The notes under the pieces are model-generated. The model was not told where the DNA came from. It ran no database searches and saw only the letters and a list, made by a program, of their open reading frames with translations. Positions 2,249-49,495 of a stretch of 64,000 bases of DNA are shown in pieces. The DNA lies in the NCBI RefSeq assembly GCF_900188275.1, contig NZ_FZNY01000003.1:434001-498000 (forward strand), read 5' to 3'. Position 1 is the first letter of the stretch; every line of letters starts with the position of its first letter. The translations under genes were made by a program, and so were the position numbers. This DNA comes from Dokdonia pacifica (GTDB lineage Bacteria; Bacteroidota; Bacteroidia; Flavobacteriales; Flavobacteriaceae).

Positions 2249-2888
2249 AGTTAGTATGCGATTTTTAATGAGTATGATGTTAATTGTGGGTGGGTACGCT
2301 TTCGCGAAAGCGCAATCAGCACAATCACTACTCAAAGAAGTAGACAGTAAGGTAAAAAGCTATAAAAATATAGCCATCGACTTTAAATATGCATTGAGCA
2401 ATGAAGCACAAGGGGTAAATCAAGAGACAAAGGGAAATGTGGTCTTAAAAGGTGATTTATACGCACTTAATTTATTAGGAACAAAACAAATATTTGATGG
2501 TGCAAGTATTTATACAATAGTACCTGAAGATGAAGAGGTAACGATAAGTGCCGTAAGTGATCAGGATGAAAATGCCATTACTCCATCTAAAATGCTCTCC
2601 TTTTTTAATGATGGATATATCCAAAAAATGGATATTACTCAAAAAGTTAATGGACGTACTATACAGTACGTGAAGTTAACACCTATGGATTCTAATAGTG
2701 AAGTAAAACATACGCTATTAGGCATTGATACTACAACAAAGCATATCTATAGATTGATCATTGTACAGAAAAATGATACTAAAATCACAATAACTGTAAA
2801 CTCATTTAAGGCAAATCAACCTATGTCTGCAAACGCATTTGTGTTTGATGAAAGTAAGTATGCAGATTATTATATTAACAAAATATAA
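2232..2888 (+). CDS. LolA-like outer-membrane lipoprotein carrier
   Basis: Periplasmic LolA-family protein of 218 residues, expected to ferry lipoproteins from the inner to the outer membrane. It begins inside the ftsK end (17 nt overlap), the usual ftsK-lolA order in Bacteroidota. ATGs at 2241 and 2256 are alternative starts and would give a tidier signal peptide. The leader ends GGYAFAKA, with predicted SPI cleavage after A27. The last five residues (AFAKA) are encoded by a copy of the dispersed palindrome. The mature part has the beta-rich LolA pattern (residues ~35-215; KGNVVLKGDLYAL, KQIFDGASIYTIVP). Family assignment rests on this pattern plus gene order. Confidence 0.85.
   Translation: MKEMNKVSMRFLMSMMLIVGGYAFAKAQSAQSLLKEVDSKVKSYKNIAIDFKYALSNEAQGVNQETKGNVVLKGDLYALNLLGTKQIFDGASIYTIVPEDEEVTISAVSDQDENAITPSKMLSFFNDGYIQKMDITQKVNGRTIQYVKLTPMDSNSEVKHTLLGIDTTTKHIYRLIIVQKNDTKITITVNSFKANQPMSANAFVFDESKYADYYINKI
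2297..2312. repeat. Dispersed palindrome inside lolA-like gene
   Basis: Perfect 16-bp palindrome CGCTTTCGCGAAAGCG. It is read as AFAKA and forms the end of the signal peptide (A-K-A before Q28). Confidence 0.95.
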
Positions 2889-2922
2889 CAGCTGTAGTAC
2901 CATAGGAATGAAGAAGGTATTG

Positions 2923-2930
2923 TATTTTTG
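2923..2930 (+). promoter_or_regulatory. Candidate -7 box before lptF/G-like gene
   Basis: TATTTTTG matches the Bacteroidota -7 consensus TAnnTTTG and lies 18 nt before the ATG at 2949. I see no clear -33 TTTG, so this is tentative. Confidence 0.4.
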
Positions 2931-2948
2931 TTTTCGATTTCCTAATTA

Positions 2949-4952
2949 ATGAAAATACTAGATCGTTATATACTTTTCACATACGTGAAAACATTCTTGA
3001 GCATCTTTATCATATTGATGTTCATTTTTGTTTTACAAAGCGTCTGGCTATATATACAAGAACTTGCTGGGCGAGATCTTGATTTTAGTGTGATTCTTAA
3101 GTTCTTACTGTTTGTAACCCCTAGTCTTGTTACCCTTGTATTACCACTTTCTGTATTGCTTACAAGTATTATGACTTTTGGGAATTTTGCTGAAAATTAT
3201 GAGTTTGCAGCAATGAAGTCAACAGGTATTTCATTGCAAAGAGCTATGAAAAGTCTCATTGTATTTATTGTGTTTTTAGGAATCACCTCCTTCTTATTTG
3301 CAAATTATGTAATTCCAGCTTCTCAATTTGAGTTTAGAAACTTGCGTAATAATATCGGGAAATTAAAACCCGCCATGATTATACGCTCAGGACAGTTTAA
3401 TGCTATAGGGGACGACATTAATATTCGTGTAGCCAATAAATATGGAGATCGAGACCAATACCTTACCGATGTCATCATACATCAAAAAGAACCCGGACGT
3501 ATTGGAAATTATACAGTTATAAAAGCAAAAGAGGGAGAACTTATTAGCTCTTTAGACTCACCAATATTGTCTTTAAAACTTACTGATGGAAATTATTATA
3601 GTGAGGTAAAACAATCTGATTATAAAAAGCAAAAAAGAGAACCCTTTGCAAAGAGTTATTTTGAAACGTATACGCTTAATATTGACTTAGGAACGCTTAA
3701 TGGAGGTGTAGACCTTGACAAAAAAGGGATTGATAACTCATACCAAATGCTTAATGTACAAGAGTTGGACTCATCATTAACAGGACTTGCTGTAAAGTAT
3801 GATAAGAGTAGAACAGAATTTGGAGAGACATTTATAAGAAAAGCTAATTTCAGTCCTATAAAAGATTTTAAACTTCCTGTAATAGATACAATACAAGAAG
3901 TACTATTAGATAATTATAACCTTACAGATAAGGTAGCTATTTTACAATCATTAAAATCTAATATTGGTAATTCTCTTACTTCTATAGATAGAAGAAAAAA
4001 GATACATGCAGTAGATGTAAAGCGTCTTAATAAATTTGAGATTGCAATACATGAAAAGTATGTTCTTGGATTTAGCTGTATCGTATTATTTTTTGTGGGA
4101 GCACCCTTAGGAGCTATTATCCGTAAAGGAGGCCTAGGACTACCAATAGTAGTAGGAGTGGTGCTTTTTCTTACCTTTCACTTTATTGGAATTTTTGCAA
4201 AAAACAGTGCAGAAGACGGAACGATCTCTGCATTTACAGCGAGCTGGTTAAGTACGTTTATCACATTACCCATAGGCGTCTATCTCACCTATAGAGCTAC
4301 AACAGACCAAGGACTCATAGATTTAGATCCTGTACGTTTATTTCTTCAAAAAATATTCGGAAAGAAGAAAAAGGAAGAAGTTGTAGAAGAAGAAAAAATT
4401 GAATATACTCTAACCGCAGAAGAAGAAGCATTACTAGATGCACGTTCTATTAATCAACTAAAAGAAATTGTAAAAAACTATAAGCAATATGACTATAGTG
4501 ATGCATTGCGATATGGGGCATTAGACCGATTGGATACATTAGGGATTACAAAAGAGAATCTTAAAGTGCAAGGGTTTTATGAGAATACAACCTATAATAA
4601 AGCCGACAAGTATTATGCAGATTTTAAGAAATACAACAAATATGCACTCATCAATTATTTAGTTTATATAGTACTTTTTGCAGTCGCTCTTTTTGCACCA
4701 CAGGTTATAGGGAAAACCCCTTCTATTGTTCTTGCATATCAAATATCACAAATAGCTTTTCTTGTCATATTTTATGTATTATTAATACTCACGCTTATTT
4801 CTGTTTCTAGATATTATAAGACAATAGGAAAAAAGAAAGAACAAACAACATGGTTATTTATTTTTATACTTGTGTTTGGTATTCCTGCATATTTACTTAT
4901 TCACTTTTACTATAAGAAAATAATGAAAGAAAGTTTACAAATGATTAGATAA
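2949..4952 (+). CDS. LptF/LptG family permease (YjgP/YjgQ)
   Basis: Inner-membrane permease of the lipopolysaccharide export ABC complex LptB2FG. The N-terminus MKILDRYILFTYVKTF and membrane helices at ~15-120 are typical; a periplasmic beta-jellyroll-like region follows (~125-360), then helices at ~375-465. At 667 residues it is much longer than the ~360 of proteobacterial LptF/G: a charged segment (~470-550) and further hydrophobic helices (~570-660) are added at the C-terminus, which I recall as common in Flavobacteriia. Whether it plays the LptF or LptG role cannot be decided here. Confidence 0.88.
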   Translation: MKILDRYILFTYVKTFLSIFIILMFIFVLQSVWLYIQELAGRDLDFSVILKFLLFVTPSLVTLVLPLSVLLTSIMTFGNFAENYEFAAMKSTGISLQRAMKSLIVFIVFLGITSFLFANYVIPASQFEFRNLRNNIGKLKPAMIIRSGQFNAIGDDINIRVANKYGDRDQYLTDVIIHQKEPGRIGNYTVIKAKEGELISSLDSPILSLKLTDGNYYSEVKQSDYKKQKREPFAKSYFETYTLNIDLGTLNGGVDLDKKGIDNSYQMLNVQELDSSLTGLAVKYDKSRTEFGETFIRKANFSPIKDFKLPVIDTIQEVLLDNYNLTDKVAILQSLKSNIGNSLTSIDRRKKIHAVDVKRLNKFEIAIHEKYVLGFSCIVLFFVGAPLGAIIRKGGLGLPIVVGVVLFLTFHFIGIFAKNSAEDGTISAFTASWLSTFITLPIGVYLTYRATTDQGLIDLDPVRLFLQKIFGKKKKEEVVEEEKIEYTLTAEEEALLDARSINQLKEIVKNYKQYDYSDALRYGALDRLDTLGITKENLKVQGFYENTTYNKADKYYADFKKYNKYALINYLVYIVLFAVALFAPQVIGKTPSIVLAYQISQIAFLVIFYVLLILTLISVSRYYKTIGKKKEQTTWLFIFILVFGIPAYLLIHFYYKKIMKESLQMIR

Positions 4953-5044
4953 AATAGCTAGTAAAGATTTCTGGTTATTATATAATTGAGCTATGTAAAC
5001 CATCATTTTGAAACCTTCCAGTAAACTACATATTTCTTTAAAAT

Positions 5045-5112
5045 ATCATTCTGAGCTTATCTAAGTTTTGACTATTTAATAATCGAAACCTCTTTAACAA
5101 GCTCAGGATGAT
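5045..5112. repeat. Inverted repeat between convergent genes
   Basis: Arms ATCATTCTGAGCTT (5045-5058) and AAGCTCAGGATGAT (5099-5112) are complementary apart from one position, with a 40-nt loop. It sits between the lptF/G-like gene and the converging PI-PLC gene and may stop both transcripts. The arm resembles the CATCCTGAGCTTGTCGAAGG intergenic sequence I remember from many Bacteroidota genomes (unverified). Confidence 0.6.
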
Positions 5113-5127
5113 AATAAACTATTTGTA

Positions 5128-6081
5128 TTATTTTTTACTATAAAATATTTTCTCACATACCTCAAGTGCCCAAGAGTCTACATAATCAACACTTAAAATA
5201 TTAACGATATTTCCATGGCTATTAGGCTGCAGTAAATTTTTATTGGTAAACTCATCTGGCTGTATAATTTGGGGATTGATCCTATCGGCCTCTGATTTAT
5301 TATCCCAAGTCATACTCCCATTATTAGTGAGTGTCCAATTAAGACAGAATAACTCTTCAGGACTTTCTAATTCACTAAACTTAGCAATTTGATCAGCTCT
5401 CATTTTTTCAAACGTTGTTTTATTGGCATAATTATCATATAATGAGAAAAACTCTGATCGTCTGTACACGTTATTATTTTTAATTTTTTTATAGCTAAAT
5501 TCTTTTTCACCATCATCAATTATAGAGACAATTTTACCTCTTAATTCTTTTAATGGGATTGTATTTAGTTTTCTGCCATTAACGACGTCTCTGGAAAGTT
5601 GATAGTTTTTACCATATTCTTTCTTATTAATATAATCATCAAAAAACAGTTCAGTCCCTTTGTCTTTATTCATATAAAAGTGAGAATACATAATGACAAC
5701 GGTTTCATCTTGCCCTTCATTTTGAAGAAATTTCTTAATGTCTTCAAGCGCTTGATCTAGTTTTACAGAATTTACTTTTTTGAACCATGACTCTCCATGA
5801 TAAAATCTAAGTACATGTCCAAATGCCGTTAACTCCCAAAGACGTTCAACTCTAAAGTCAAAATATCTAACACCGAGTCTTAGTTGTTCTTTAATACTCT
5901 TACTTTGTGTTAAGCCTAATCGTGTTTCTAACGGAAATGCTATAAAAGGAGAAATTATCATTTTTCCATCAATATCTAATGCATACATTCCAGAATCATG
6001 AGATGCAGGCATACAAATATCTTTTAAGGTTAAGTTTCCATTTACTGTAGACATCCATTTACTTGGGTTACTAATATCCAT
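5128..6081 (-). CDS. PI-PLC X-domain protein
   Basis: Phosphatidylinositol-specific phospholipase C-like protein, 317 residues. The X-domain signatures are present: ASHDSGM with candidate catalytic His28, VRYFDFRVERL, and FYHGES with candidate second catalytic His95. Family enzymes cleave phosphoinositide or related glycerophospholipid head groups through a cyclic intermediate. No signal peptide or lipobox is visible at the N-terminus (MDISNPSKWMSTVNG), which is unusual for a bacterial secreted PI-PLC, so location is uncertain. It stands alone on the - strand after a 257-bp gap. Substrate cannot be inferred. Confidence 0.8.
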   Translation of the reverse strand: MDISNPSKWMSTVNGNLTLKDICMPASHDSGMYALDIDGKMIISPFIAFPLETRLGLTQSKSIKEQLRLGVRYFDFRVERLWELTAFGHVLRFYHGESWFKKVNSVKLDQALEDIKKFLQNEGQDETVVIMYSHFYMNKDKGTELFFDDYINKKEYGKNYQLSRDVVNGRKLNTIPLKELRGKIVSIIDDGEKEFSYKKIKNNNVYRRSEFFSLYDNYANKTTFEKMRADQIAKFSELESPEELFCLNWTLTNNGSMTWDNKSEADRINPQIIQPDEFTNKNLLQPNSHGNIVNILSVDYVDSWALEVCEKIFYSKK

Positions 6082-6270
6082 TACTATTTATTTTTTAATT
6101 GTTCCTTACTCTATTGTAGGTTTTTCAGGTTCCACCAATTTGATGGTGTAAATATCTCTATAGAAGCTAGATATAGACATAGGGAGATTCCCCTACTTAA
6201 AAAAATAGGGAATTCCCTAAGTATAGACAGTTACTTGATATGTGATAGATTATTAAATAAAAATAGAAGG

Positions 6271-6287
6271 CTACGCTTTCGCGAAAT
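6271..6287. repeat. Half-degenerate copy of dispersed palindrome
   Basis: CTACGCTTTCGCGAAAT keeps the left arm and core of the 20-bp palindrome but loses the right arm. It lies in the 257-bp gap between the regulator and PI-PLC genes. No other clear element was seen in that gap. Confidence 0.75.
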
Positions 6288-8379: not shown

Positions 8380-8386
8380 TAATAAT

Positions 8387-10536: not shown

Positions 10537-10605
10537 TATACGCTTTCAAGGAGCAGAGTGACGCAGAAGTTTATACAGAGCTCAGTCGAAGTACGAAAGC
10601 ATACA
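10537..10605. repeat. Type 1 composite repeat element (copy A)
   Basis: A 69-bp element beginning TATACGCTTTCAAGGAGCAG and ending GTACGAAAGCATAC, so its ends are an inverted repeat with the same sequence as the arms of the short palindrome. A near-identical copy in opposite orientation is at 29830-29898. It occupies the middle of the 320-bp gap between ribBA and lpdA; the rest of that gap holds the ribBA terminator and the lpdA promoter, and I see no gene in it. Confidence 0.9.
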
Positions 10606-12197: not shown

Positions 12198-13295
12198 ATG
12201 TACAGAACAACCCTCAAAATTTCTATCATATTTTTATACCTAATTATCATTGCAGGAGCTGTTGTGAGAATGACAGGAAGTGGTATGGGATGCCCCGATT
12301 GGCCTAAATGTTTTGGATACTATATTCCCCCTACAGAAGAAACCCAATTACAATGGGAAGCTAATAGAGCCTATAAAGAAGGACAGATCATTATTGTAAA
12401 TGAATCATTGCGTATTGCTCCTAGTGATTTTATATCTGGAGATACTTATATAGAAAATAACTGGTCTACGTATGATAAGCATGATTATGCTGCTTTTAAT
12501 GTATGGCATACTTGGATTGAGTACATCAATAGACAAGTAACGGTGCTTGCAGGAATTCCTATTCTTTTGATGATTCTCTTTTCATTTTGGTATTGGAAAG
12601 AACGTGTATGGCTCATCTTTGGGTCGTTCTTTGTATTACCACTAATGGGGTTTGAAGCATGGTTAGGAAAACAAGTGGTAGATTCTAATTTATTACCTGT
12701 TAAGATTACCATACATATGATTGTTGCATTACTCATTGTTGCACTATTGTTATATCTATGGCATAAATCGCAAGAGAAGGAGCGTAGTATAAGTACGCTT
12801 TCGCGAAATCGAACTCCTGAGATTCACGACCATAGGGAGAGCGAAGCGTTAAAACTAAAGAAGTATGACCCACTTTTTAAGAACTTAGTATTACTAGCGG
12901 GTGTGCTCACCTTAGTACAAGTTGCATTTGGAACCCAAGTACGACAGTATGTAGATGAGCAAGTCATTGCACTAGGATATGAAGCAAAAGGACAATGGCT
13001 GAATCCACCGACAGTTATGTTTTATGTACACCGATCTTTTTCTATACTTGTTACCCTTCTTAACGTATACTTATTCTGGCGTAATAGAAAATACCTTTTG
13101 GGTCATGCCCATCTATTAGTTTGGGTACTTATCCTAATAGCTTTAGAAGTTATTACAGGTATTGCCATGTATTATATAGATTTCCCATTTGGAACACAAC
13201 CTTTGCATTTAGTTGTGGCTTCTTTATTATTTGGAATTCAGTTTTATATATTCTTAGAGAGCCTTAAAAGGAAGGAAGAAGTAATTGTAGGATAA
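12198..13295 (+). CDS. ctaA: Heme A synthase (Cox15/CtaA)
   Basis: Inner-membrane enzyme oxidising the heme O methyl group to make heme A for cytochrome oxidase. 365 residues, about eight helices. Conserved features: VRMTGSGMGCPDWPKC near the N-terminus, HTWIEYINR, and heme-ligand histidines in HMIVALLI, HRSFSILVTL and HLVVASLLFG. The cytoplasmic loop between the two halves (~200-220) contains a stretch STLSRNRTPEIHDHRESEAL encoded by a composite repeat element inserted in frame, so the protein is about 20 residues longer than it would otherwise be. Followed by a bidirectional terminator. Confidence 0.93.
   Translation: MYRTTLKISIIFLYLIIIAGAVVRMTGSGMGCPDWPKCFGYYIPPTEETQLQWEANRAYKEGQIIIVNESLRIAPSDFISGDTYIENNWSTYDKHDYAAFNVWHTWIEYINRQVTVLAGIPILLMILFSFWYWKERVWLIFGSFFVLPLMGFEAWLGKQVVDSNLLPVKITIHMIVALLIVALLLYLWHKSQEKERSISTLSRNRTPEIHDHRESEALKLKKYDPLFKNLVLLAGVLTLVQVAFGTQVRQYVDEQVIALGYEAKGQWLNPPTVMFYVHRSFSILVTLLNVYLFWRNRKYLLGHAHLLVWVLILIALEVITGIAMYYIDFPFGTQPLHLVVASLLFGIQFYIFLESLKRKEEVIVG
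12794..12855. repeat. Type 2 composite repeat element inside ctaA
   Basis: Begins TACGCTTTCGCGAAATCGAA and continues through GATTCACGACCATAGGGAGA, closely matching the intergenic copy at 48608-48674. The far end (TTAAAAC) is degraded relative to the intact terminus TTAAAGCGTATA. The insertion keeps the ctaA frame open. Confidence 0.9.
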
Positions 13296-19119: not shown

Positions 19120-20694
19120 TTAAGAACTACAAGATAACATAGAGCATCCTACTTTATGACGCGCCCACTCTGGACGTTTAGCAAACCAACGTTCATACTT
19201 CGGTTGTTCATCATATGGATTTTTAAGAAGTGTATGGATCTCATCCAGAAGTTTATAATCCCCTTTGTCTGCGGCATCTATCACGAGTTGTGCTATATAA
19301 TTACGTAATACATATTTAGGATTGACTTTATTCATTTGTACTTTACGTTCAGCATCTGTTAGAGTCTCCCTAGAAAGTCTTTTTATATAGTTTTGAAACC
19401 ATGTTTCCCAATGGGAATAGATGGTTTTGGAAATCTCTTCTGGTTTATAGAAGGCCGCTTTCGCGAAAGCGTAAAAAGCATCTTCCCAACTAGTAGTTAT
19501 ATTTTTTGATACGAGTGACAAGTTCCTAAAGAATATAGTCATATCAGTTTCTGAAGCTTGAAGATTTTTCTCTAAATCTGCTATGAGTTGGATATCTGAT
19601 TCCTCAGCCATTTGTAAGCCTAATTTTTCTCGCATCATTGCGATATATTTTTTAGGATACTCCGTATGATAGCTTTGTAATATAGCTTCTAGTGGTTCGG
19701 TTTCACCTATTAATGGATATAATGCATTGGCCAATTGGAGCAGATTCCAAAGGGCAATCTGTGGTTGATTTCCAAATCGGTATCGTTTGTTTTGGCGGTC
19801 GGTAGTATTGGGTGTCCATCCAGGTTCATAAGCTTCTAACCATCCATAAGGGCCATAATCTATGGTAAGACCTAAAATAGACATATTATCGGTATTCATG
19901 ACACCATGTACAAATCCAACACGTTGCCAATGAATAATCATTTCTAATGTGTTTTGTACGATCTCATTAAAGAATCCAAGATAACCTTCTTTAGTTCCTC
20001 CTTCATATTGAGGATAAAAATGCTTAATCGTATAATCTGTGAGGGTTTTAAGTGTTTCTGTATCCTGACGACTGGCAAAGATTTCAAAATTTCCAAAGCG
20101 AATAAAACTTGGAGCAACACGACAAACAATAGCCCCTCTTTCATAAGCCGCATTACCATCATACATGACGTCTCTTAATACTTGATCACCTGACAACGAA
20201 AGTGATAATGATCGTGTAGTAGGCACGCCTAAATGATACATCGCTTCACTACATAAATGCTCTCGTATAGAAGACCTAAGTACTGCTAATCCATCTGCTG
20301 TACGAGAATAGGGTGTTTCTCCAGCTCCTTTAAGCTGTATTGCCCAACGTTTATTCTGATGTGTGATTTCTGCTAAGTTAATAGCTCTTCCATCACCTAA
20401 TTGACCAGCCCAATGTCCAAATTGGTGCCCGCCATAACACATCGCATATGGAGCAGTTCCTTCTTGTACATGGGCTCCAGTTACCATATCAAGAAAGGCT
20501 TTTGATTTTATATCTTCTTGAGATAACCCAAGAGTTTCTGCCATTTCATTAGAAACCTGAAGTAGGGAAGGAGCAGATGGTATTCTAGGGGTTACATAAG
20601 AAAAACAAGCTTTTTCTACCTGTCGTCTTGTATTTGCTGTACTAGGATCGGCAGGTAATTCTTGACTAAACGTGTTTTCTATAGATAATTGCAT
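19120..20694 (-). CDS. selO: SelO/YdiU protein AMPylase
   Basis: SelO pseudokinase-family enzyme that transfers AMP to protein hydroxyl groups (family knowledge; tied to redox stress). 524 residues. Signature GGHQFGHWAGQLGDGR (~84-99), KGAGETPYSRTADGLAVLRSS, the MNTDNMSILGLTIDYGPYG segment (catalytic loop and metal site, N and D residues) and the C-terminal GCSMLSCSS, where vertebrate SelO has selenocysteine and bacteria a Cys. A dispersed palindrome lies in the gene and is read as AFAKA in FYAFAKAAFYKPEE (~408). Followed by the Crp-like gene after 11 nt. Confidence 0.95.
   Translation of the reverse strand: MQLSIENTFSQELPADPSTANTRRQVEKACFSYVTPRIPSAPSLLQVSNEMAETLGLSQEDIKSKAFLDMVTGAHVQEGTAPYAMCYGGHQFGHWAGQLGDGRAINLAEITHQNKRWAIQLKGAGETPYSRTADGLAVLRSSIREHLCSEAMYHLGVPTTRSLSLSLSGDQVLRDVMYDGNAAYERGAIVCRVAPSFIRFGNFEIFASRQDTETLKTLTDYTIKHFYPQYEGGTKEGYLGFFNEIVQNTLEMIIHWQRVGFVHGVMNTDNMSILGLTIDYGPYGWLEAYEPGWTPNTTDRQNKRYRFGNQPQIALWNLLQLANALYPLIGETEPLEAILQSYHTEYPKKYIAMMREKLGLQMAEESDIQLIADLEKNLQASETDMTIFFRNLSLVSKNITTSWEDAFYAFAKAAFYKPEEISKTIYSHWETWFQNYIKRLSRETLTDAERKVQMNKVNPKYVLRNYIAQLVIDAADKGDYKLLDEIHTLLKNPYDEQPKYERWFAKRPEWARHKVGCSMLSCSS
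19456..19471. repeat. Dispersed palindrome inside selO
   Basis: CGCTTTCGCGAAAGCG, read as AFAKA in the protein. It falls in a helical part of a cytoplasmic enzyme, so here it is not linked to secretion. Confidence 0.95.
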
Positions 20695-26397: not shown

Positions 26398-27963
26398 TTA
26401 ATCTTTAACCCCTGGCTGTTTGATTTCAAATCCTCCTTCGGCTGCTTTTGCCTTGTCTACCATTGCTTTTACATCACGTAATAGCTGTTTTGCATCATAG
26501 ATAATCCCATCTTTAATGGTGTATTTTACACCACCAGCACGAATAACTTCATTGTCTTCAGTAAGTTTGATAGCACCAGTACCGTAGAGTACTTTCAAAT
26601 TTTGGAGCGGATTTTCATCTACAATTACAAAATCGGCTAGTTTTCCTACTTGTATAGACCCTATTTTATCATCCATACGTAATGCTTCGGCTCCATTCAG
26701 CGTAGCAGCTCTAATAACTTCCATAGGATGGAAACCAGCTTCTCTTAATAATTCTAATTCACGTATGTAAGCAAATCCATACAATTGAAAGATAAACCCA
26801 GAGTCAGATCCTGCGGTTACACGTCCTCCTCGGTTTTTATACTCATTGATAAAGGTCATCCATAAGCGGTAATTTTCGCGCCAAGCAACTTCTTCTTCTG
26901 TCCCCCAGAAATGCCAGTAGGATCCATGTGAGATTTTACTAGGTTGATAAAAACGCCATAAGGATGGAAGTGTATAATCTTCATGCCACTCTGCTCTTCG
27001 TGCTCTCATGAGATCACGGCTTGCTTCATAGATATTAAATGTAGGATCAAGTGTAAAATCTAAAGCTAGTAATTCTTCCATGACCGCATTCCAATGATCT
27101 GAGTATGGAGCTGCTGCTTGTTGCCATAATCTACCCGCTTCTCCAAAACGATGTTGCTCATTATTGTAGTTATAATCTAACGGATAGTCTTGTACAGTAC
27201 GATCTGTAAATAGCGCTTCTGGTAATCCATACCAATGCTCCATAGAGGTAAGTCCAGCTCTTGCCGAGTGTAATACATTCCATCTTGCTACACTTAATTG
27301 TGCGTGATGCATAGATGAGGTAAGGCCTAGTTTTTTATTCTCTTCAAGGGCTGCTTGCATGATATGTGGTTCTGCTCCAAAAAACTTAATTCCATCGGCT
27401 CCTTTTTTTGCATTATCACGTACCCATTGCCTTGCTTGTTCTGCTGTTGTAATTGGGGTTTTACTCCCTTGTCCAAACCCTGTATGGGCAACAATACGAG
27501 GTGCAATAATTTCATTTTTTGCCGATCTGCGTTTTAAATCTAAGGCATAATCTATACCTCTTCCTGAAGGTTCGCGTACTGTCGTTATTCCATGTGCCAT
27601 CCATAATTTAAATACATAATCCCAATCTGCACCTTGCGCAACGCCTCCTATATGACCATGCATATCTACAAAACCAGGAAGTAAATACATCCCATTAGCA
27701 TCTAGCTCTTTCCCTCCACTTTTAAGTTGAGGTCTTTTTGCATTATCAATTGGAACACCTGGATAGCCTACTACTTTAACTTCTTTAATTATATTGTTTT
27801 CTACAACAATATCTACAGGACCAATAGGCGGTGCACCATCACCATTTATAACGGTAACACCACGTATGATTAATTGATTAAATGGGCCTTGCTGTGTTTG
27901 CGCTTTCGCGAAAGCGTATACACTCAAAATAATAGCTAAAGTGAGAAGTAGTTGTTTTTTCAT
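26398..27963 (-). CDS. Secreted amidohydrolase-superfamily protein
   Basis: 521-residue metal-dependent hydrolase of the imidazolonepropionase-like/prolidase-like amidohydrolase group. Signal peptide ends VYAFAKA before Q22, with the AFAKA part encoded by a dispersed palindrome. Catalytic elements: metal-binding HxH in PGFVDMHGHIGG (~105), later SMHHAQLS and MEHW, and the conserved Asp in TAGSDSGFIFQ (~395); C-terminal beta strand KLADFVIVDENPL. Relatives act on peptides or imidazolones; substrate is not deducible. Confidence 0.88.
   Translation of the reverse strand: MKKQLLLTLAIILSVYAFAKAQTQQGPFNQLIIRGVTVINGDGAPPIGPVDIVVENNIIKEVKVVGYPGVPIDNAKRPQLKSGGKELDANGMYLLPGFVDMHGHIGGVAQGADWDYVFKLWMAHGITTVREPSGRGIDYALDLKRRSAKNEIIAPRIVAHTGFGQGSKTPITTAEQARQWVRDNAKKGADGIKFFGAEPHIMQAALEENKKLGLTSSMHHAQLSVARWNVLHSARAGLTSMEHWYGLPEALFTDRTVQDYPLDYNYNNEQHRFGEAGRLWQQAAAPYSDHWNAVMEELLALDFTLDPTFNIYEASRDLMRARRAEWHEDYTLPSLWRFYQPSKISHGSYWHFWGTEEEVAWRENYRLWMTFINEYKNRGGRVTAGSDSGFIFQLYGFAYIRELELLREAGFHPMEVIRAATLNGAEALRMDDKIGSIQVGKLADFVIVDENPLQNLKVLYGTGAIKLTEDNEVIRAGGVKYTIKDGIIYDAKQLLRDVKAMVDKAKAAEGGFEIKQPGVKD
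27901..27916. repeat. Dispersed palindrome in amidohydrolase signal peptide
   Basis: CGCTTTCGCGAAAGCG, read as AFAKA ending at the predicted signal-peptidase site (A-K-A before Q22). Confidence 0.95.
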
Positions 27964-28455: not shown

Positions 28456-28553
28456 GGGTTGTTGATTATAAAGGTGTTTTATGAAAATTGAATGTTCACT
28501 GCTAAAGATACGTATTGTGAGGGAAATGTAGGTATTAGATTTTATAGTGGCTT

Positions 28554-28640
28554 TATACGCTTTAACGCTTCGCTCTCTTGATTGTCGTGAACCTGCCTGC
28601 CGGTAGATAGGTCTCACAAGCTCGATTTCGCGAAAGCGTA
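28554..28640. repeat. Type 2 composite repeat with nested palindrome
   Basis: 87-bp element from TATACGCTTTAACGCTTCGC to TTTCGCGAAAGCGTA, i.e. inverted relative to the copy in ctaA. Between GTCGTGAA and TCTCACAAG it contains the 20-bp imperfect palindrome CCTGCCTGCCGGTAGATAGG (28592-28611), which other copies lack. It lies in the gap upstream of the 28455 gene. Confidence 0.9.
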
Positions 28641-28674
28641 GACCCTTTTCAAAATATCAGAGAACAAATGATTC

Positions 28675-29829: not shown

Positions 29830-29898
29830 TATACGCTTTCGTACTTCGACTGAGCTCAGCATAAACTTCTACGTCACTCTGCTCCTTGAAAGCGTATA
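29830..29898. repeat. Type 1 composite repeat element (copy B, inverted)
   Basis: 69-bp element TATACGCTTTCGTACTTCGA ... CCTTGAAAGCGTATA, the reverse complement of the copy at 10537-10605 with only a few differences. It lies between the propeller lipoprotein and the transglutaminase-like gene. Confidence 0.92.
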
Positions 29899-32878: not shown

Positions 32879-32945
32879 TACGCTTTACCATTTCATTCTC
32901 CCTCCGGTTGTGAACCTCGTAAGTTCGCTTTCGCGAAAGCGTATA
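32879..32945. repeat. Type 2 composite repeat without nested insert
   Basis: TACGCTTTACCATTTCATTC ... GCTTTCGCGAAAGCGTA, 67 bp, lying just before the DUF2200 gene. It carries a full GCTTTCGCGAAAGC palindrome (32927-32940) and no nested CCTGCCTGCC insert. Its first half matches the copy at 55055. Confidence 0.88.
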
Positions 32946-42361: not shown

Positions 42362-44875
42362 TTAGTTGATTAAACTCCCAAAAAATAATGCATTTAAAAA
42401 CAACTTATTTGTACCATACCAACTCCCTCTAAAGTTAGGATTATCAGCAAAAAGAACAACGCGACCATTCCCTTGCGGACTCACAACTAGTGAAGCCGAT
42501 GGTTTTAAATTATCTTCTAGATTTTCTTCAGAAATAAAACCATCTATATGTGGGTTTTTAGTATACTTAGCTACGGTGTTATATTCACTTTTGCTAGGTG
42601 CTAACCACACATTATTATTTTTATAAACAGGCAAATCGCGATAACGATACCCAAATCCAAGCGGATGTGTAAGATCTAAGTCTACTTCAAAAATAGCACC
42701 TCCCAAACGTTGTTTCCCACGATTAGCACGTGCATCTACATAATTTTTACGCTCTGTGACCTTACTAGTATCCTTTTTCTTTTCAGTTAGTTTTCCAGTA
42801 GCCACTTTTCTATTAATCGCCCAAGAAGTAGCCCTTCCGATAGTAATAAGTGTATTCCCTTGTGATACCCACGTTTTAAGCTTTTGAACATCCCCATCTG
42901 AGAGTCTGCTATAATTTCCAGAAACCATGACTAAAGTATTGTACTTGCTGAGATCTGCAAATCGGAAGTTATTCATTAGGATTTTAGTGATGGGCATATG
43001 CACACGTGTATCTAATAAATGCCATACCTCTCCAGCTTCATACGAGCTTGTACCATCACCAATAAGCATAGCCGCTTTAGGTGTATCTACTTTTACATAA
43101 TTTCGGCTACCTAGGTCAATTCCATTGACACTAAAACCAGTATTTGTGGCATAAATAGGCACCTGATAACGCTGTTGCGCTTCCGAGACAATAGTGTGTA
43201 CCTTTGTTGCATCCATAGATTGTCTACTTACAGGCACTAGAAGCGCTCCATAATTAAAATCTATGGTACCACGCTGCGTTTTTGCAGTAAACGGCTTAAA
43301 AGCTGTCGAAACGATAATTCCTTTCTGTTGTAAATGATATAGTAATGCAGTTGCATTATAATCATCATAATTAATCAAGTATGCATACTTTGTTTTTGAA
43401 ACTGGAGTAACAGTAGCAATCGTTTCGGTACTAGTAATTTCATCTCGTAGGTTAGGTACACTATTTAACCCTTTGTAACGCATATTATAAAAATTGGCAA
43501 CACTCCATGCACTCGCATCATAATAGACGCTATCTCTGTATGTACTATACGTTTCAAAGAAAGATTGCACCATACGTTTTTGTGGTTGTGCCATCGGTAC
43601 TACATATCGGCCATCTCCTTTTTTGTAGGTTTTAATGCGGTGTAATAAGAGTTTGTCTATAAATGCTTTGGTACGATTACGGTCATTAGGATCTCCAAAC
43701 TCGTAGGCTGCAGCCTGATCTGTTTTTGCTTTCGCGAAAGCGGATACAAAAAAATCTTGCTGGTATTTGCGTAAGGTTGCTTTATTTTCGACAGCAGCTT
43801 TTACGGTAGCAAAACTAGAAGTGTATTGATTACGAATGGTAAATGGAAAAGAAATGGTTCCAAAGTCGGTGTCTTGTAAATGCCCTCTACTACTGGCTTG
43901 CTCAAAAAGTAAAGCTAAAGCACCTTGTAAATCGGGATACGAACTTCCATAGCCAGGATAGGTGCCATCAAAGGCTTCTTTAGTAAAATAGAAAGACCCG
44001 ATTTGATCTAAGGCATCTGCAAAATAGGGTGCAAATAGGTTGTTGAGGTCTTCATAATTTTCCTTTGGCATGATAGGATCTAAACTTCCTATTGGGAGCA
44101 TCGGTTCAAAAAAGTGTGTGCTATTGGTGCCCATTTCGTGAAAATCGGTTACCACATTTGGATACCACTCATGATACCAGTTTAATTTTCCGCGACTTTC
44201 AGGATTGATTCCTAATAACCAATCACGATTTAAATCAAACCAATAATGATTGGTACGACCTCGTGGCCACATTTCGGTATGTTCTGCATCTATATTATCA
44301 GAGACAAGCGGCGATCCTTTAAAGCTGTTAGCCCATTGTGTATGGCGATCACGTCCATCAGGATTAATAGTAGGGTCTATAAAAATAATAGCATTTTTAC
44401 GGTAGTTAACGATATCAGCATGCTGAGAAGCAACTAGAGTATAGGCTGTTAGTAAAGCCGCTTCCGAACTAGATGGTTCATTACCATGTACATTATAACC
44501 TAGTTGTATAAAAACAGGAACCTGATCATAATTTGTAGCTTTTTGTGAAGTATCTGTAAAAGCAAGATGTTGTGTTTTAATACGTTCTAGATTGGTATGG
44601 TTTTCTGGAGTGGTCACAGTAAGCATTACTAATTTTCTGCCTTCATGTGTTCGTCCATATTCAGCTATCGTAGCACGGTCTGATACTTCGGCTAGTTTTT
44701 CTAAATAAGATACAATCTGATCATGACGTGTATGTTGATCTCCAATACCATAACCTAGAAACTGCTCTGGTGTCGGGATGTTTTGTTGAAAAGGAGCATA
44801 TGCTGCAAAGTAATAATCTTGCGCTTTCGCGAAAGCGGATAAAAAAAGAATAATAATGAGTAACGAACGTTTCAT
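42362..44875 (-). CDS. M14-family zinc carboxypeptidase, secreted
   Basis: 837 residues; signal peptide MKRSLLIIILFLSAFAKA before Q19, the AFAKA being encoded by a dispersed palindrome. Peptidase M14 motif: zinc ligands His and Glu in NVHGNEPSSSEA (~127-130), later zinc His in TDFHEMG (~245) and general-base Glu in ALLFEQASSRG (~327). A second palindrome gives VSAFAKAKTDQ (~383). C-terminal half has a glutamine-amidotransferase-like/Rossmann-like layout (LMVSGNYSRLSDGDVQK, GRVVLFADNPNF). An inner alternative start two codons earlier exists (44881). Probably degrades extracellular or periplasmic peptides. Confidence 0.9.
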   Translation of the reverse strand: MKRSLLIIILFLSAFAKAQDYYFAAYAPFQQNIPTPEQFLGYGIGDQHTRHDQIVSYLEKLAEVSDRATIAEYGRTHEGRKLVMLTVTTPENHTNLERIKTQHLAFTDTSQKATNYDQVPVFIQLGYNVHGNEPSSSEAALLTAYTLVASQHADIVNYRKNAIIFIDPTINPDGRDRHTQWANSFKGSPLVSDNIDAEHTEMWPRGRTNHYWFDLNRDWLLGINPESRGKLNWYHEWYPNVVTDFHEMGTNSTHFFEPMLPIGSLDPIMPKENYEDLNNLFAPYFADALDQIGSFYFTKEAFDGTYPGYGSSYPDLQGALALLFEQASSRGHLQDTDFGTISFPFTIRNQYTSSFATVKAAVENKATLRKYQQDFFVSAFAKAKTDQAAAYEFGDPNDRNRTKAFIDKLLLHRIKTYKKGDGRYVVPMAQPQKRMVQSFFETYSTYRDSVYYDASAWSVANFYNMRYKGLNSVPNLRDEITSTETIATVTPVSKTKYAYLINYDDYNATALLYHLQQKGIIVSTAFKPFTAKTQRGTIDFNYGALLVPVSRQSMDATKVHTIVSEAQQRYQVPIYATNTGFSVNGIDLGSRNYVKVDTPKAAMLIGDGTSSYEAGEVWHLLDTRVHMPITKILMNNFRFADLSKYNTLVMVSGNYSRLSDGDVQKLKTWVSQGNTLITIGRATSWAINRKVATGKLTEKKKDTSKVTERKNYVDARANRGKQRLGGAIFEVDLDLTHPLGFGYRYRDLPVYKNNNVWLAPSKSEYNTVAKYTKNPHIDGFISEENLEDNLKPSASLVVSPQGNGRVVLFADNPNFRGSWYGTNKLFLNALFFGSLIN
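43728..43742. repeat. Dispersed palindrome inside M14 peptidase gene
   Basis: GCTTTCGCGAAAGCG, read as AFAKA in VSAFAKAKTDQ. Confidence 0.95.
44822..44837. repeat. Dispersed palindrome in M14 peptidase signal peptide
   Basis: CGCTTTCGCGAAAGCG, read as AFAKA at the signal-peptidase site (A-K-A before Q19). Confidence 0.95.
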
Positions 44876-45007
44876 ACACAAAGTTTTAGTAGACTAAAAA
44901 TAGGCAAAAAATAATAGGGGATGAGTGGATATAAGTTCATTTATTTTTTTATTAAAGTATTTCTTGCACGATATTTGATATAAATTGTTGAAAATTTAAA
45001 ATAGTAT

Positions 45008-46384
45008 ATGCGTTATATAGTACTCCTTCTCTTCGTGACCCTTCCTGCTTTAAGTCAAGACATTGTTCCAGGCACCATTATTTCTCAAATAGCCTTGGAT
45101 GATACTAAAAATGAAACGTACGCATTATACCTTCCCAGAGCTTACGATGAAAATGGAAATTATCCTGTTGTTTTTGTTTTTGATGAAACCAACCAAGGAG
45201 ATCGAGCAGTACAGCAATTTACCATTGGAGCAGAACTCACAAATAGTATTATAATAGGGGCAAATTTTGCCATAAAAGATTCTTTGCAAACTGGATTAAA
45301 ACGTACAGAAAAACTAATTAATACGCTATATCAACGCTATGCAATAGACGCTACAAAAATTATTCTAGCCGGGAGAGGAGACGGTGCATTAATAGCTACT
45401 GCAGGCGCTTATAAAACACAAAAAATTAAAGGAGTTATAGCCATAAATGATATCTATTTAGACAATACGATATTTCGTAAAAACTCAAGGATTAAGCTTA
45501 CCCTCATCTCTGGAGATGAAAACCCTAATTATTATAAGTTAAGAGCTTATCAGGGCGTATTACGAAGTAGTTCTAGTTTTGCGGGCTATTATGAATATAA
45601 TGGTGGTAGTGATTGGCCAGAAGCAGGATTCTTATCGGCAGCGATGGTTGATATTTTAATGACAAGAGCCACTCCCGTAGAAGATGTACAACGTTATTAT
45701 GAAAGTGATTTAGCTTTTGGAGAATTGTTATACAGACAGCAAAAACACCTCCCTGCTTTTAGTTTTGTTCAAGATTTAAAAAAACAATATAAGGATCGGG
45801 TAGAGATAGATGCACAGAAGAAATTATTAAAAACAATACGCGGTAATGCTACTTTTAAAGCAAAACGATCTAGAAGAACATCCGTAAAATATGCAGAGAT
45901 TTTATTGGCAGAAGACTTTCAGTATTACCTTAACGAAGATGCAAAGAATTCTTACTTTGATAATCTGGGCTGGTGGAATTTTCAAATGAATGATTTGGAT
46001 GCAAAAATAGATAGTACGGCTTCCAATAATCAAGAACGTAAAGCTTCTATTCGTTTAAAGGGATTTGCAAAAACACTTGTAGAAGATAAATACAAAGAGA
46101 TTTTAACGAAAAATCCTAAGATTGAGCAATTACTTTTTATGAATGTATTGCGCACCCTTGTAGATCCTAATAATCAGCAAGCATTTGTAAATGCAATCTC
46201 TTTAAGTGCCAAAGATGGAGATGTAAATGCATCTTTATTTTACTTAGAAGAGTTACTTAAGAGTGGTTTTAAAGATTATGAACTTCTATATACTATAGAT
46301 GGAACTACAGCATTGCGTATAGGTGAAGAATGGAATGCTATTGTAAAAGCTTACCTAGGGAAATCTAAGTTTTTTGATGATTAA
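45008..46384 (+). CDS. Alpha/beta-hydrolase-fold protein, likely without a catalytic serine
   Basis: 458 residues; signal peptide MRYIVLLLFVTLPALS. N-terminal esterase-like half: LYLPRAYDENGNYPVVFVFDE and IDATKIILAGRGDGALIAT (~114-132). Active relatives have G-x-S-x-G at this elbow; here the position of the Ser is Gly (GRGDG), so I predict no ordinary esterase activity. C-terminal half (~240-455) is helical. The following gene is also transcribed on the + strand. Confidence 0.75.
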   Translation: MRYIVLLLFVTLPALSQDIVPGTIISQIALDDTKNETYALYLPRAYDENGNYPVVFVFDETNQGDRAVQQFTIGAELTNSIIIGANFAIKDSLQTGLKRTEKLINTLYQRYAIDATKIILAGRGDGALIATAGAYKTQKIKGVIAINDIYLDNTIFRKNSRIKLTLISGDENPNYYKLRAYQGVLRSSSSFAGYYEYNGGSDWPEAGFLSAAMVDILMTRATPVEDVQRYYESDLAFGELLYRQQKHLPAFSFVQDLKKQYKDRVEIDAQKKLLKTIRGNATFKAKRSRRTSVKYAEILLAEDFQYYLNEDAKNSYFDNLGWWNFQMNDLDAKIDSTASNNQERKASIRLKGFAKTLVEDKYKEILTKNPKIEQLLFMNVLRTLVDPNNQQAFVNAISLSAKDGDVNASLFYLEELLKSGFKDYELLYTIDGTTALRIGEEWNAIVKAYLGKSKFFDD

Positions 46385-46487
46385 TTATCGTTGAGAATTT
46401 ATCTATTTCGCACTCATAAATAGGTGTATATACGCATAAATATCACTGTATCTTCTTTTATATTCGTATTTCTAAACTTTTGGAAAT

Positions 46488-47405
46488 ATGGAAGTTATCG
46501 ATATACATGCTATCACACAAGTTGATTCAAGTGGATCCTCTTATGTAGATGGGCGTCCTTGTTTTAGTCCCGATGGAAGAACAGTACTTTTTGAACGAAG
46601 TGGAAGTGGTATCTCTCTTAATGAATTTTGGTCTGTACCTATAGATAATCCAGGTTCAGAAAAAGTGTATTATACATCAAGTACCTATAATTGTCTTCGT
46701 GCTGCTTGGTCATGGAATCCTAATCAAAAGAATAATCAAATTGCTTTTACTGCAAACTCTAACGGCATTTCTAAAATAATGCTTCTTGATGCTGGTGGTG
46801 CTCCTAATAGTGCTCAGGAACTTACTATACAAGGATATCAAGCAAATATAAAACTTTCGTATCCTGCTTGGTACTCATCATCAAATGCTGATGAAGAAGC
46901 ATTGTTGATTACAGATTATAATGCTTTAAACCTTATAAAAGCAACGACCCATGGCGAGTTTTTAGGAGTTGTATCCTCTGCTACGAAATGGACAGGAATG
47001 GGTACTGTATCTGCCGTAAATAAAAATGTGATTGCCTATGCTGGGCAGTCAATGAGTGCAAATGGATATAACCAAAATGTAAATCAAATATGGATACAAA
47101 CCCCTGGTCGTGCCCCTGCTTTATTTTCGAGTAAAGATAAAGGCACTATTGGAAGAGCCCCATGGATAAGCCCAGATGGAAAGATGATGGCTTTTGAAGC
47201 ATTATCAAACGGAACATCTGGAAATATGCAAATATTTCTTAAGCAAATAACAAATGCTCCTTATGATCAACCTATTGTCTCAGTAAGTAATGCCAATAAT
47301 CCCTCACAACATGCTAAGTTTTCGCCTGATGGTACAAAATTAGTATGGATGCAAACTACCGCACCAGGTAAAACACAAATTTTTTTGGGAACAATACATA
47401 TGTAA
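46488..47405 (+). CDS. PD40/TolB-like beta-propeller protein
   Basis: 305 residues, no signal peptide. PD40-type repeats: GRPCFSPDGRTVLFERSGSG, GRAPWISPDGKMMAFEAL, HAKFSPDGTKLVWMQT. Such propellers bind partners or sit on proteases (TolB, tricorn). Isolated here; role unknown. Confidence 0.82.
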   Translation: MEVIDIHAITQVDSSGSSYVDGRPCFSPDGRTVLFERSGSGISLNEFWSVPIDNPGSEKVYYTSSTYNCLRAAWSWNPNQKNNQIAFTANSNGISKIMLLDAGGAPNSAQELTIQGYQANIKLSYPAWYSSSNADEEALLITDYNALNLIKATTHGEFLGVVSSATKWTGMGTVSAVNKNVIAYAGQSMSANGYNQNVNQIWIQTPGRAPALFSSKDKGTIGRAPWISPDGKMMAFEALSNGTSGNMQIFLKQITNAPYDQPIVSVSNANNPSQHAKFSPDGTKLVWMQTTAPGKTQIFLGTIHM

Positions 47406-47446
47406 CTTTATACCAATTCTAACCATTATTTAAAATTAACCATCCT

Positions 47447-48589
47447 ATGAACCGTATTATGTGGAGTAGCTTTTTAGCACTCATTTTAGTAAGTAGTTGT
47501 AAAAACAACACAGAAACAACTCAAACAACAAGCAAAGAAGAAGTCAAAGAAACTGTAGTTAAAGATTCTATTTTATTTAGTTTTTCTTTTATGGGATGTA
47601 ACCGTGTGAATAGAGGAGATACAACAAGCTCGGTTCCTTCTACTGCCAATAAATATGCATTACAACGTATTTTTAGCGAGCTCACTCATAAAAAAGATCA
47701 ACCAGAATTGTTTTTCTTTTTAGGAGATTTAGTACTTGCTGAGAGTACGCTTCCTAATTTAGATTCGCAATTAAAAGCATGGGATTCACTATATAAAAGT
47801 GATGCATTTAGTTCTTCAAATATTGAATTGGTAGCAGTGCCAGGAAATCATGAAATGCTGTATTCTAAGGAAGTAAAGCCTAATAAATGGAAAGAGTTTC
47901 CGTTAAAAGGAAGTACAGATATCTGGCTTACTCATATGAAGTCTTATATGCCTGTAGGACGTAAGACAGCACCAAGTTCTGATATACTGGACAATAGACT
48001 TACATTCTCATTTAAACGTCATAATGTTGGGTTTGTCGTCATGAATTCTGATAGCTATAATCCTGATAGACCAAGTAATCCTTATGGATTAGGATTGGAA
48101 GGTCAAGTTCCTGTTACTTGGGTAAATGATCAGGTAAAAGCTTTTAAAGCTGATACAGAAGTAGACCATATTTTTGTATTAGCGCATCGTCCATACTATG
48201 TAGATGGGAATATAGAAACTGGGCATGCCGGATTACCGCAAGGAGGAGAGTTATGGCCTGTATTTCAAGAAAATAAAGTGGTAGCATTATTATCGGCGCA
48301 TGTACATGATTATCAGCGTTGGCAACCTATAAATGATAGTTTAGGAGGAGGTACCTATCAGATTATTGCAGGAAATGGTGGTAGTGAAGGCGCGGCTCCT
48401 TTTTTTGGATATAGTACTATCTCTGTGATGAGTAGTGGAAAATTAGCGTTTGACTCTGTAGGCTTTTGTATTGGAAATCCCTATACAAGTGCTGTTCCAG
48501 ATCATCCAACAACCTCAAGAGATAAGATTACCCTCACATGGCAAGAAAATCCTAAGAAGTTTCCGCAACCATATACTGGGTGTCAATAA
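47447..48589 (+). CDS. Calcineurin-like metallophosphoesterase lipoprotein
   Basis: 380 residues; SPII lipobox LVSSC. Metal-binding blocks: FSFMGCNRVNRGD, FFFLGDLVLAES, VPGNHEMLYS, AHRPYYVDG and SAHVHDYQRW, in the right order. Active as a phosphatase or phosphodiesterase; substrate not deducible. Followed by a composite repeat and a terminator. Confidence 0.9.
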   Translation: MNRIMWSSFLALILVSSCKNNTETTQTTSKEEVKETVVKDSILFSFSFMGCNRVNRGDTTSSVPSTANKYALQRIFSELTHKKDQPELFFFLGDLVLAESTLPNLDSQLKAWDSLYKSDAFSSSNIELVAVPGNHEMLYSKEVKPNKWKEFPLKGSTDIWLTHMKSYMPVGRKTAPSSDILDNRLTFSFKRHNVGFVVMNSDSYNPDRPSNPYGLGLEGQVPVTWVNDQVKAFKADTEVDHIFVLAHRPYYVDGNIETGHAGLPQGGELWPVFQENKVVALLSAHVHDYQRWQPINDSLGGGTYQIIAGNGGSEGAAPFFGYSTISVMSSGKLAFDSVGFCIGNPYTSAVPDHPTTSRDKITLTWQENPKKFPQPYTGCQ

Positions 48590-48607
48590 TATTTAAAAGA
48601 TACTACA

Positions 48608-48674
48608 TACGCTTTCGCGAAATCGAACTTGTGAGATTCACGACCATAGAGAGAGCAAAGTGATAAAGTGTATA
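48608..48674. repeat. Type 2 composite repeat between converging genes
   Basis: TACGCTTTCGCGAAATCGAA ... GATTCACGACCATAGAGAGA ... GTGTATA, 67 bp. The best intergenic match for the copy inside ctaA. Confidence 0.9.
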
Positions 48675-48677
48675 AAG

Positions 48678-48715
48678 AACCCCTATCCTTTACAAAGTGA
48701 TAGGGGTTTTTATTA
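48678..48715. terminator. Terminator between metallophosphoesterase and DJ-1-like genes
   Basis: AACCCCTATC pairs with GATAGGGGTT around CTTTACAAAGT, followed by a T-rich tract; convergent genes on both sides. Confidence 0.85.
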
Positions 48716-48718
48716 TTT

Positions 48719-49495
48719 TTAGTCTACAATCAAATGAGGAACTTCCTCCAATTTCCAATCTATAACAAGTCCTCCAGCAAGAGAACGAGCAATTGCTGCT
48801 CCATATAAATGTTCTGCCAGATAGAGCGCTGCCTCAAAACTTTTGGCACCACCCGCTGAGGTAATGTACTTTCCATCGTGTACAAATAATACTTCTTTAC
48901 GGATATCTAATTGCGGAAATGTTTCGCGCATTTTATCAATATCACTTGGGAATGTAGTAGAAACACTACCATCCAATAATCCTGCTTTTGCCAATACAAA
49001 AGCACCATCACAATGTGAGGTGATAAACTGTGCATTTTGATCTACCTTTTTTACAAAATTGATCATTACTTCATCATCCAAATCGGTATCTAGATGATGT
49101 TCTGCACTAGGTACTACCAGAATATCAATGTTGGGGAGATCTGATGCCGTATAATCAAAATCGGGTAGGAGGTACATCCCCTCAAACGTACGGATAGGAT
49201 CTAGTGTATTTGCTACTGTAAATACATTCATCTGTTTGATATTTTCTCGATACTGTGTATGCTGGAAAATATCAAAAGGAGCCGTAAGCTCGGTATTATA
49301 AACACCATCCATTATCAGGAATGCTACATTATAGCGACCTTCTTTTAATGTTGGTTTTGCTTTCGCGAAAGCAGAACCAGTATCTTTACCATTTTTTAGA
49401 GTGTCTACAGTATTCTTATCAGTTTTCACATCCATAGTAGCATCTCCACAAGAGATAACACAACAGATGATGAATAGGAGTGTTATGTATTTCAT
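48719..49495 (-). CDS. DJ-1/PfpI-family lipoprotein
   Basis: 258 residues; lipobox CVISC (Cys16). A flexible linker includes NGKDTGSAFAKAKP, where AFAKA is a dispersed palindrome. Then a DJ-1/PfpI (class I amidotransferase-like) domain: VAFLIMDGVYNTELTAPFDI, candidate nucleophile Cys in FITSHCDGAFVLA (~161), TSAGGAKSFEAALYL. Resembles the ThiJ/AraC-associated subgroup without a DNA-binding part. Its start overlaps the MFS stop by 4 nt, so they are co-transcribed. Confidence 0.88.
   Translation of the reverse strand: MKYITLLFIICCVISCGDATMDVKTDKNTVDTLKNGKDTGSAFAKAKPTLKEGRYNVAFLIMDGVYNTELTAPFDIFQHTQYRENIKQMNVFTVANTLDPIRTFEGMYLLPDFDYTASDLPNIDILVVPSAEHHLDTDLDDEVMINFVKKVDQNAQFITSHCDGAFVLAKAGLLDGSVSTTFPSDIDKMRETFPQLDIRKEVLFVHDGKYITSAGGAKSFEAALYLAEHLYGAAIARSLAGGLVIDWKLEEVPHLIVD
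49359..49372. repeat. Dispersed palindrome inside DJ-1-like gene
   Basis: GCTTTCGCGAAAGC, read as AFAKA in a disordered linker just after the lipid anchor. Confidence 0.93.

Follow-up and report, generated by a model that had tools for sequence, protein, structure and literature searches.

Why should every intact copy of one short palindrome that lies within a gene be read as the same five residues, AFAKA, and in three of six cases stand at the end of a signal peptide? The question is raised by a stretch of 64,000 nucleotides of Dokdonia pacifica (contig NZ_FZNY01000003.1, positions 434,001 to 498,000; G000:C18:434001-498000 in our numbering of genomes and contigs), here called the window, which holds nine exact copies of the palindrome GCTTTCGCGAAAGC, six coding and three intergenic. 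A preliminary description of the window suggested that the palindrome is a mobile repeat recruited as a signal-peptidase site. We propose instead that GCTTTCGCGAAAGC is a clade-limited highly iterated palindrome (HIP) kept for a role at the level of the DNA, and we favour, with a probability of a little under one half, a role as the binding site of a putative dimeric chromosome-organising protein.

Abundance of the palindrome and its copies in the window

The palindrome is 14 nucleotides long and, between genes, is most often extended to the 20-mer TACGCTTTCGCGAAAGCGTA. The 5.52-Mb genome (G000) contains 903 exact copies, compared to none of the reversed control. Gene context was determined in a sample of 852,546 bp of this genome (15%) containing 139 of the copies, in which genes were called by a simple codon-score script and signal peptides by a crude predictor of our own. 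Seventy-one of the sampled copies lie inside called genes and 68 outside; codon usage alone predicts about 0.001 coding copies in the sample. One-mismatch forms number 28, compared to the 139 exact copies, and 21 of the 28 share the letter change of a form that is interrupted by a small element. Intergenic copies have T-rich/A-rich flanks, and fewer palindromes are found between convergent genes (5 in 22.4 kb) than between tandem (50 in 99.4 kb) or divergent genes (12 in 23.4 kb). As expected of a HIP, the palindrome is far above chance genome-wide, occurs both in and between genes, and reaches a high load only within a limited clade.

The copies in the window are as follows (↓, signal-peptide cleavage):

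2298–2311, plus strand: copy in a LolA-family gene (2232–2888); AFAKA frame, signal-peptide end AKA↓Q
19457–19470, minus strand: copy in a SelO gene (19120–20694); AFAKA frame, internal (aa 409), common to genome G014
27902–27915, minus strand: copy in an amidohydrolase gene (26398–27963); AFAKA frame, signal-peptide end AKA↓Q
43728–43741, minus strand: copy in an M14 peptidase gene (42362–44881); AFAKA frame, internal (aa 379)
44823–44836, minus strand: second copy in the M14 peptidase gene (42362–44881); AFAKA frame, signal-peptide end AKA↓Q
49359–49372, minus strand: copy in a DJ-1/PfpI gene (48719–49495); AFAKA frame, N-terminal region (aa 22 of the called gene), not a signal-peptide match
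12794–12853, plus strand: seventh coding copy, in a COX15/CtaA gene (12198–13295); LSRK frame, split by an in-frame type 1 element
32927–32940, no strand: exact intergenic copy that ends a type 1 element (32879–32943)
58043–58056, no strand: exact intergenic copy, full 20-mer TACGCTTTCGCGAAAGCGTA
62664–62677, no strand: exact intergenic copy, full 20-mer
6275–6287, no strand: half palindrome GCTTTCGCGAAAT between the listed open reading frames (ORFs)

The inner TTTCGCGAAA stands alone at five further sites in the window, and more palindrome halves flank small elements. The M14 copy at 43728–43741 is also present in G014, G006 and G008, and is absent without a gap in G016.

Conservation and spacing of the sites

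The DNA sequence of the palindrome itself seems to be under purifying selection, judging from comparisons of orthologous genes. In a strict count, in which each ortholog pair was taken once, only the AFAKA frame was considered and the peptide was identical in both genes, the exact 14-mer was kept in 6 of 9 pairs with 50–70% identity, 29 of 35 with 70–85% and 20 of 24 with at least 85%, a total of 55 of 68. Control windows from these genes, also chosen for an identical pentapeptide, kept their DNA in 316 of 4853 (6.5%), 1789 of 19581 (9.1%) and 5461 of 23423 (23.3%) cases in the same identity bins. A looser count over all frames, in which kept pairs were tallied in both directions and four matching residues were enough for the LSRK and FRES frames, yielded 54 of 57, 74 of 82 and 66 of 72 for these bins. 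The kept rates, 67–83% in the strict count and 90–95% in the looser one, are both far above those of the controls.

The sites are also more evenly spaced than in a null model of random placement that preserves the coding/intergenic split. All 11 contigs that hold 12 copies or more had a coefficient of variation (CV) of spacing below the null mean (P ≤0.03 in nine of them), and gaps shorter than 1.5 kb were depleted in all 11 (each P <0.05). Between genes, positions can be compared across G000 and G014, which have 68 syntenic intergenic regions, 11 of them with a copy in at least one of the two genomes. Eight of these 11 regions share a copy, one of the eight having a further copy in G000; in the remaining three, an element in G000 stands where G014 has an exact copy.

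Origin of the coding sites

Alignments of orthologs suggest that coding sites arise by base substitution. Among ortholog pairs of at least 50% identity with a copy beyond residue 45, 204 of 214 were gapless within five residues of it, and orthologs without the copy show ordinary peptides of equal length at the site. Because these copies are gapless even against orthologs that lack the palindrome, they were written by substitution, and we rejected a mobile insert as their source. Support is weaker for copies in the first 45 residues, for which 30 of 64 pairs were gapless, 26 had a gap within five residues and 8 had a gap at the copy; origin by substitution would therefore extend only in part to the copies in signal peptides. 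The insertion of a mobile repeat into genes, as suggested in the preliminary description, is contradicted by the pairs beyond residue 45; the N-terminal ones point both ways. Its other proposal, that placement elsewhere in the genes is selected against, comes near to our own conclusion, except that selection would act on where a constrained DNA word is tolerated and not on insertions.

Reading frame and signal peptides

All three reading frames of the palindrome are free of stop codons, as had been seen from the sequence at the outset. The 71 coding copies of the sample are read 45 times as AFAKA, 18 times as LSRK and 8 times as FRES (chi-square P 2e-7), and when orthologous sites were merged over eight genomes, 110 sites comprised 67 AFAKA, 27 LSRK and 16 FRES. 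From amino-acid composition AFAKA is the least expected of these peptides (0.23, compared to 0.70 for LSRK and 0.30 for FRES). The excess of AFAKA is a preference and not a rule. The six intact coding copies in the window do all read GCT TTC GCG AAA GC, that is, AFAKA, as previously described; six of six is unremarkable alone, with P 0.065 at the sample rate of 45/71. The claim that coding copies as such are read as AFAKA holds for these six but not beyond them: 26 of the 71 sampled copies are in another frame, and the seventh in the window, in the COX15/CtaA gene, reads LSR. This copy (12794–12808) encodes ..STLSRN..., and the ortholog in G017 has an exact copy there that encodes STLSRKR.

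Signal-peptide ends hold 9 of 74 coding copies in the G000 sample, all of them AFAKA, compared to 1.03 expected (P 1.5e-6); the total is 74 instead of 71 because ORFs were extended upstream for this test, and the predictor was positive for 282 of 686 genes. In eight related genomes, which are not independent, signal-peptide ends hold 18 of 174 copies, compared to 2.26 expected. Because AFAKA itself fits the cleavage rule of the predictor, the test was repeated with the palindrome masked, scoring only the hydrophobic stretch and no A-x-A or Gln rule. The masked control gave 8 of 71 copies compared to 1.00 expected (P 1e-5) in the G000 sample and 17 of 171 compared to 2.23 over the eight genomes. 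Among the 139 of 903 copies that were sampled, then, frames are uneven (45/18/8) and signal peptides are enriched (9 versus 1.03), the two features on which the preliminary description had made its case depend.

Six of the nine signal-peptide copies in G000 end AKA↓Q, and in the other three the predicted cut lies two to five residues later, also before Q. Since A at −1 and Q at +1 both raise the predictor's score, this count of Q is partly built in. Gln at +1 is known as the Q-rule of Bacteroidetes (PMC5837995, in the part available to us), and palindrome-bearing signal-peptide ends have its pattern of A-x-A followed by Gln. The three secreted proteins of the window, namely the LolA-family protein, the amidohydrolase and the M14 peptidase (44823–44836), indeed end their signal peptides as AKA before Gln, the three ends being GGYAFAKA↓QSAQ, SVYAFAKA↓QTQQ and LSAFAKA↓QDYY. 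LolA was found in 17 of 18 genomes of the genus, with an exact palindrome in 15, one mismatch in G016 and none in G005. It was also found in all 30 further genomes of the family that were searched, of which 12 were read: a carrier of genus g210 has the palindrome, a carrier of genus g11 does not, and the ten orthologs from genomes without a full load all lack it and have [A/S]↓Q at the same place, as judged by eye. On this comparison, LolA had its cleavage site before it acquired the palindrome, contrary to the earlier suggestion that the palindrome was recruited as a ready-made cleavage site.

Distribution among genomes

All 17 other genomes of the same genus carry the palindrome, with 369–905 copies each. 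Among 397 sampled genomes of the family, 80 have at least one copy and a full load occurs only in three genera, g1, g11 (578, 609 and 664 copies) and g210 (408 copies); the remaining copy-bearing genomes of the family have 1–19. Twenty-nine of 296 sampled genomes of the order have a copy, and outside the family there are never more than two. Full-load genomes contain about 125–275 palindromes per Mb. A single origin of the full load was examined with a tree of FtsK, in which the rows of g1, g11 and g210, together with the no-load genomes G116 and G118, fall into one supported clade (99/95); forcing the carriers into a single clade was not rejected (p-AU 0.253). Six genera without the load, from each of which 40 kb was sampled, had no 12- or 14-mer palindrome that occurred three or more times, and they thus have no palindrome "dialects" in the DNA sampled.

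A low copy number could mean that a former load has been lost. The 16 copies of G116 are confined to 78 kb of a single contig, and this clustering makes a transferred island more likely there. Fourteen stretches around low-number copies were compared (10 no-load genomes, 9 genera), of which nine share long similar segments, and four islands, in G127, G118, G254 and G141, contain a pair of copies within one gene at a distance of exactly 933 bp. These similarities suggest that low-copy islands came by transfer from dense carriers. Proteins read from two such islands belong to the outer membrane efflux, ACR_tran, heavy-metal P-type ATPase and Fur families. Metal-efflux-type islands with the palindrome were seen in no-load genera at L336-L340, L342-L344, L346, L347 and L355. 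Some low-GC viral contig stretches (L187, L221, L242, L170 and L248) contain two or three copies, which might mean that the palindrome is shared by phages of carriers; 67 of the 120 viral stretches fetched exceed 50% GC and are probably chance matches.

Small elements at the palindrome

Some palindromes are interrupted or adjoined by small elements. A type 1 element inside or beside the palindrome adds a net 45 bp, or 65 bp with a palindromic CCTGCCTGCCGGCAGGCAGG-like insert, as judged from the spacing of the halves. A second type is unrelated to type 1. The following cases in the window, none assigned to a strand, add to those listed above:

28556–28640: type 1 element flanked by palindrome halves; exact copy in G014 at the corresponding position
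55055–55139: type 1 element flanked by palindrome halves; exact copy in G014 at the corresponding position
48608–48667: type 1 element adjoining a palindrome half
10539–10603: element of the second type flanked by palindrome halves; exact copy in G014 at the corresponding position
29832–29896: element of the second type, again flanked by palindrome halves; net 45 bp

The G000 sample contains 29 occurrences of the type 1 motif and G014 contains 6, the six other sampled genomes having none; one type 1 element lies in frame inside the COX15/CtaA gene. Because elements occur in G000 where G014 has an exact copy, and other positions are shared, it is the elements that appear to target the palindrome, and the positions of the palindrome appear stable. 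The plasmid and phage collections contained no match to window positions 28550–28650. Elsewhere in the window, a direct repeat of 300 nt (62730–63029 and 63174–63473; 78% alike, 444 bp apart) adjoins a GC-rich CACCTCCGCCGCC repeat.

What maintains the palindrome

Palindromic symmetry suits a dimer. In the explanation that we favour, a dimeric, sequence-specific protein would bind the palindrome, and its sites would organise the chromosome or nucleoid. About 900 sites would be kept by purifying selection at roughly even spacing; coding sites would arise by base substitution and persist only where the resulting peptide is tolerated. AFAKA would be tolerated most often, and signal peptides would collect sites because their A-x-A↓Q end can take it up at almost no cost. 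We infer that the biases toward one frame and toward signal peptides both reflect tolerance on the side of the protein; in signal peptides the enrichment itself is observed, and tolerance is its probable cause.

Several points weigh against a binding site maintained by selection. Sites turn over: the exact 14-mer was kept in 194 of 262 aligned pairs and absent in 68, of which 23 are one base off, and this two-direction count favours kept pairs. The sampled genomes are related, so that neither pairs nor contigs are independent, and gene and signal-peptide calls rest on our own simple scripts. Evenness of spacing by CV was not significant in G014 (P 0.16) or G006 (P 0.27). A ParB-like binder specific to carriers was rejected, as ParB_N (PF02195) is not commoner in carriers: of 24 genomes, G000 has two matches and each of the other 23 a single one. 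Finally, the constraint could equally stem from uptake-biased recombination. The second ParB_N match of G000 (G000:C21:474723-475001, in a 616-aa open frame) is found only in that genome among the 24.

The main rival, unlikely but to be taken seriously, is a DNA uptake signal, comparable to the uptake signal sequence (USS) of Pasteurellaceae and the DNA uptake sequence (DUS) of Neisseria: competent cells would prefer DNA with the palindrome, and uptake and recombination would build and preserve the sites. Such a signal would fit a palindrome that is abundant, clade-limited, found in and between genes, biased in frame and flanked between genes by T-rich/A-rich sequence, and palindrome-dense islands have reached genera without the full load. 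An uptake drive is expected to leave many one-mismatch sites beside exact ones, but these are rare here (28 versus 139 exact), and our repeat is palindromic with few near-matches, unlike USS and DUS. The likeness to those sequences lies in the hundreds to thousands of exact copies, the presence in transferred DNA and a location bias within genes, known for uptake sequences from the part of PMC2346458 available to us; however, known uptake sequences are not palindromic, and the motifs in that part are not. The rival stays in play because competence occurs in some Flavobacteriaceae and Riemerella columbina takes up its own DNA preferentially, although Flavobacterium johnsoniae was not competent in the same study (PMC7965970, likewise available in part).

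A HIP linked to a methyltransferase is improbable. An orphan enzyme would modify the centre of the palindrome (TCGCGA or CGCG), and sites would be kept for methylation-dependent repair or regulation, for which the CpG-rich centre of the palindrome is suitable; the cyanobacterial palindrome HIP1 has been discussed together with methyltransferases acting inside it (PMC4390886, in the part available). However, of the two families examined, C5 methyltransferases (PF00145) occur in 4 of 12 carriers compared to 6 of 12 other genomes and PF01555 is above the cut-off in 2 of 12 carriers, neither being a consistent trait of carriers, and TCGCGA is not avoided outside the palindrome (observed/expected 1.0–1.5 in nine carrier samples). 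An RNA hairpin acting as a transcription terminator or mRNA stabiliser is very improbable: the repeat is perfectly inverted and, of the 50 copies between genes on the same strand, 28 are found no more than 61 nt past the upstream stop codon, but 71 of the 139 copies fall within genes, where all three frames occur, the spaces between convergent genes hold fewer, and no T-run follows the repeat (the 8 nt after the 20-mer are 45% A and 27% T). On these flanks and this gene context we rejected a terminator or RNA hairpin. Least probable of all is the mobile palindromic repeat, inserted in one frame and recruited as a signal-peptidase site, for which the high copy number, the gaps at N-terminal copies and the small mobile-looking inserts speak, but against which stand the gap-free copies beyond residue 45, the conservation of exact DNA along with the peptide, the shared intergenic positions and the greater age of the LolA cleavage site.

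Relation to known repeats

Rickettsia palindromic elements are short palindromic repeats that are read in frame inside proteins. The coding palindromes studied here differ from them in that those beyond residue 45 are substitutions, and only the type 1 inserts behave like in-frame elements. Repetitive extragenic palindromic (REP) sequences and miniature inverted-repeat transposable elements (MITEs) are short palindromes in high copy number between genes. The present palindrome, in contrast, has half of its copies within genes and occupies the same positions in different genomes, and there is no sign of it moving.

The closest class is that of highly iterated palindromes, from whose known member the present one differs in sequence, length and host group. 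HIP1 sites were reportedly found by Xu, Lawrence and Durand in 2018 to be conserved and non-randomly spaced. Like HIP1, the present palindrome is strongly over-represented and clade-limited (PMC4390886, in part). It is not HIP1 itself, its sequence being GCTTTCGCGAAAGC and not GCGATCGC and its length 14–20 bp compared to 8 bp, and its density is below the roughly 500–2500 per Mb given for cyanobacterial motifs in the available part of PMC4390886. Unlike HIP1, it comes with no consistent C5 or PF01555 methyltransferase and has small elements inserted in it. In the literature searched, which was largely outside subscription journals and covered HIP and uptake sequences in Flavobacteriaceae as well as palindromes in Dokdonia, we found nothing on this repeat.

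Implications

We tentatively suggest that three genera may carry an undescribed chromosome-organising system, consisting of about 400–900 evenly spaced 14-bp sites and a putative dedicated dimeric protein. Such a system would be strict enough to fix synonymous positions and to impose one pentapeptide on dozens of unrelated proteins, especially where signal peptides end. Because the sites are numerous, sharp, even and sometimes gained or lost between relatives, the function of a HIP would be directly testable outside cyanobacteria. The palindrome also offers a clear case in which selection at the DNA level limits protein-coding freedom: a conserved AFAKA usually keeps the exact 14-mer, whereas ordinary conserved pentapeptides have mostly lost their DNA word. 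It carries a warning as well, since a recurrent peptide, such as AFAKA at the ends of signal peptides, can be the by-product of a DNA word.

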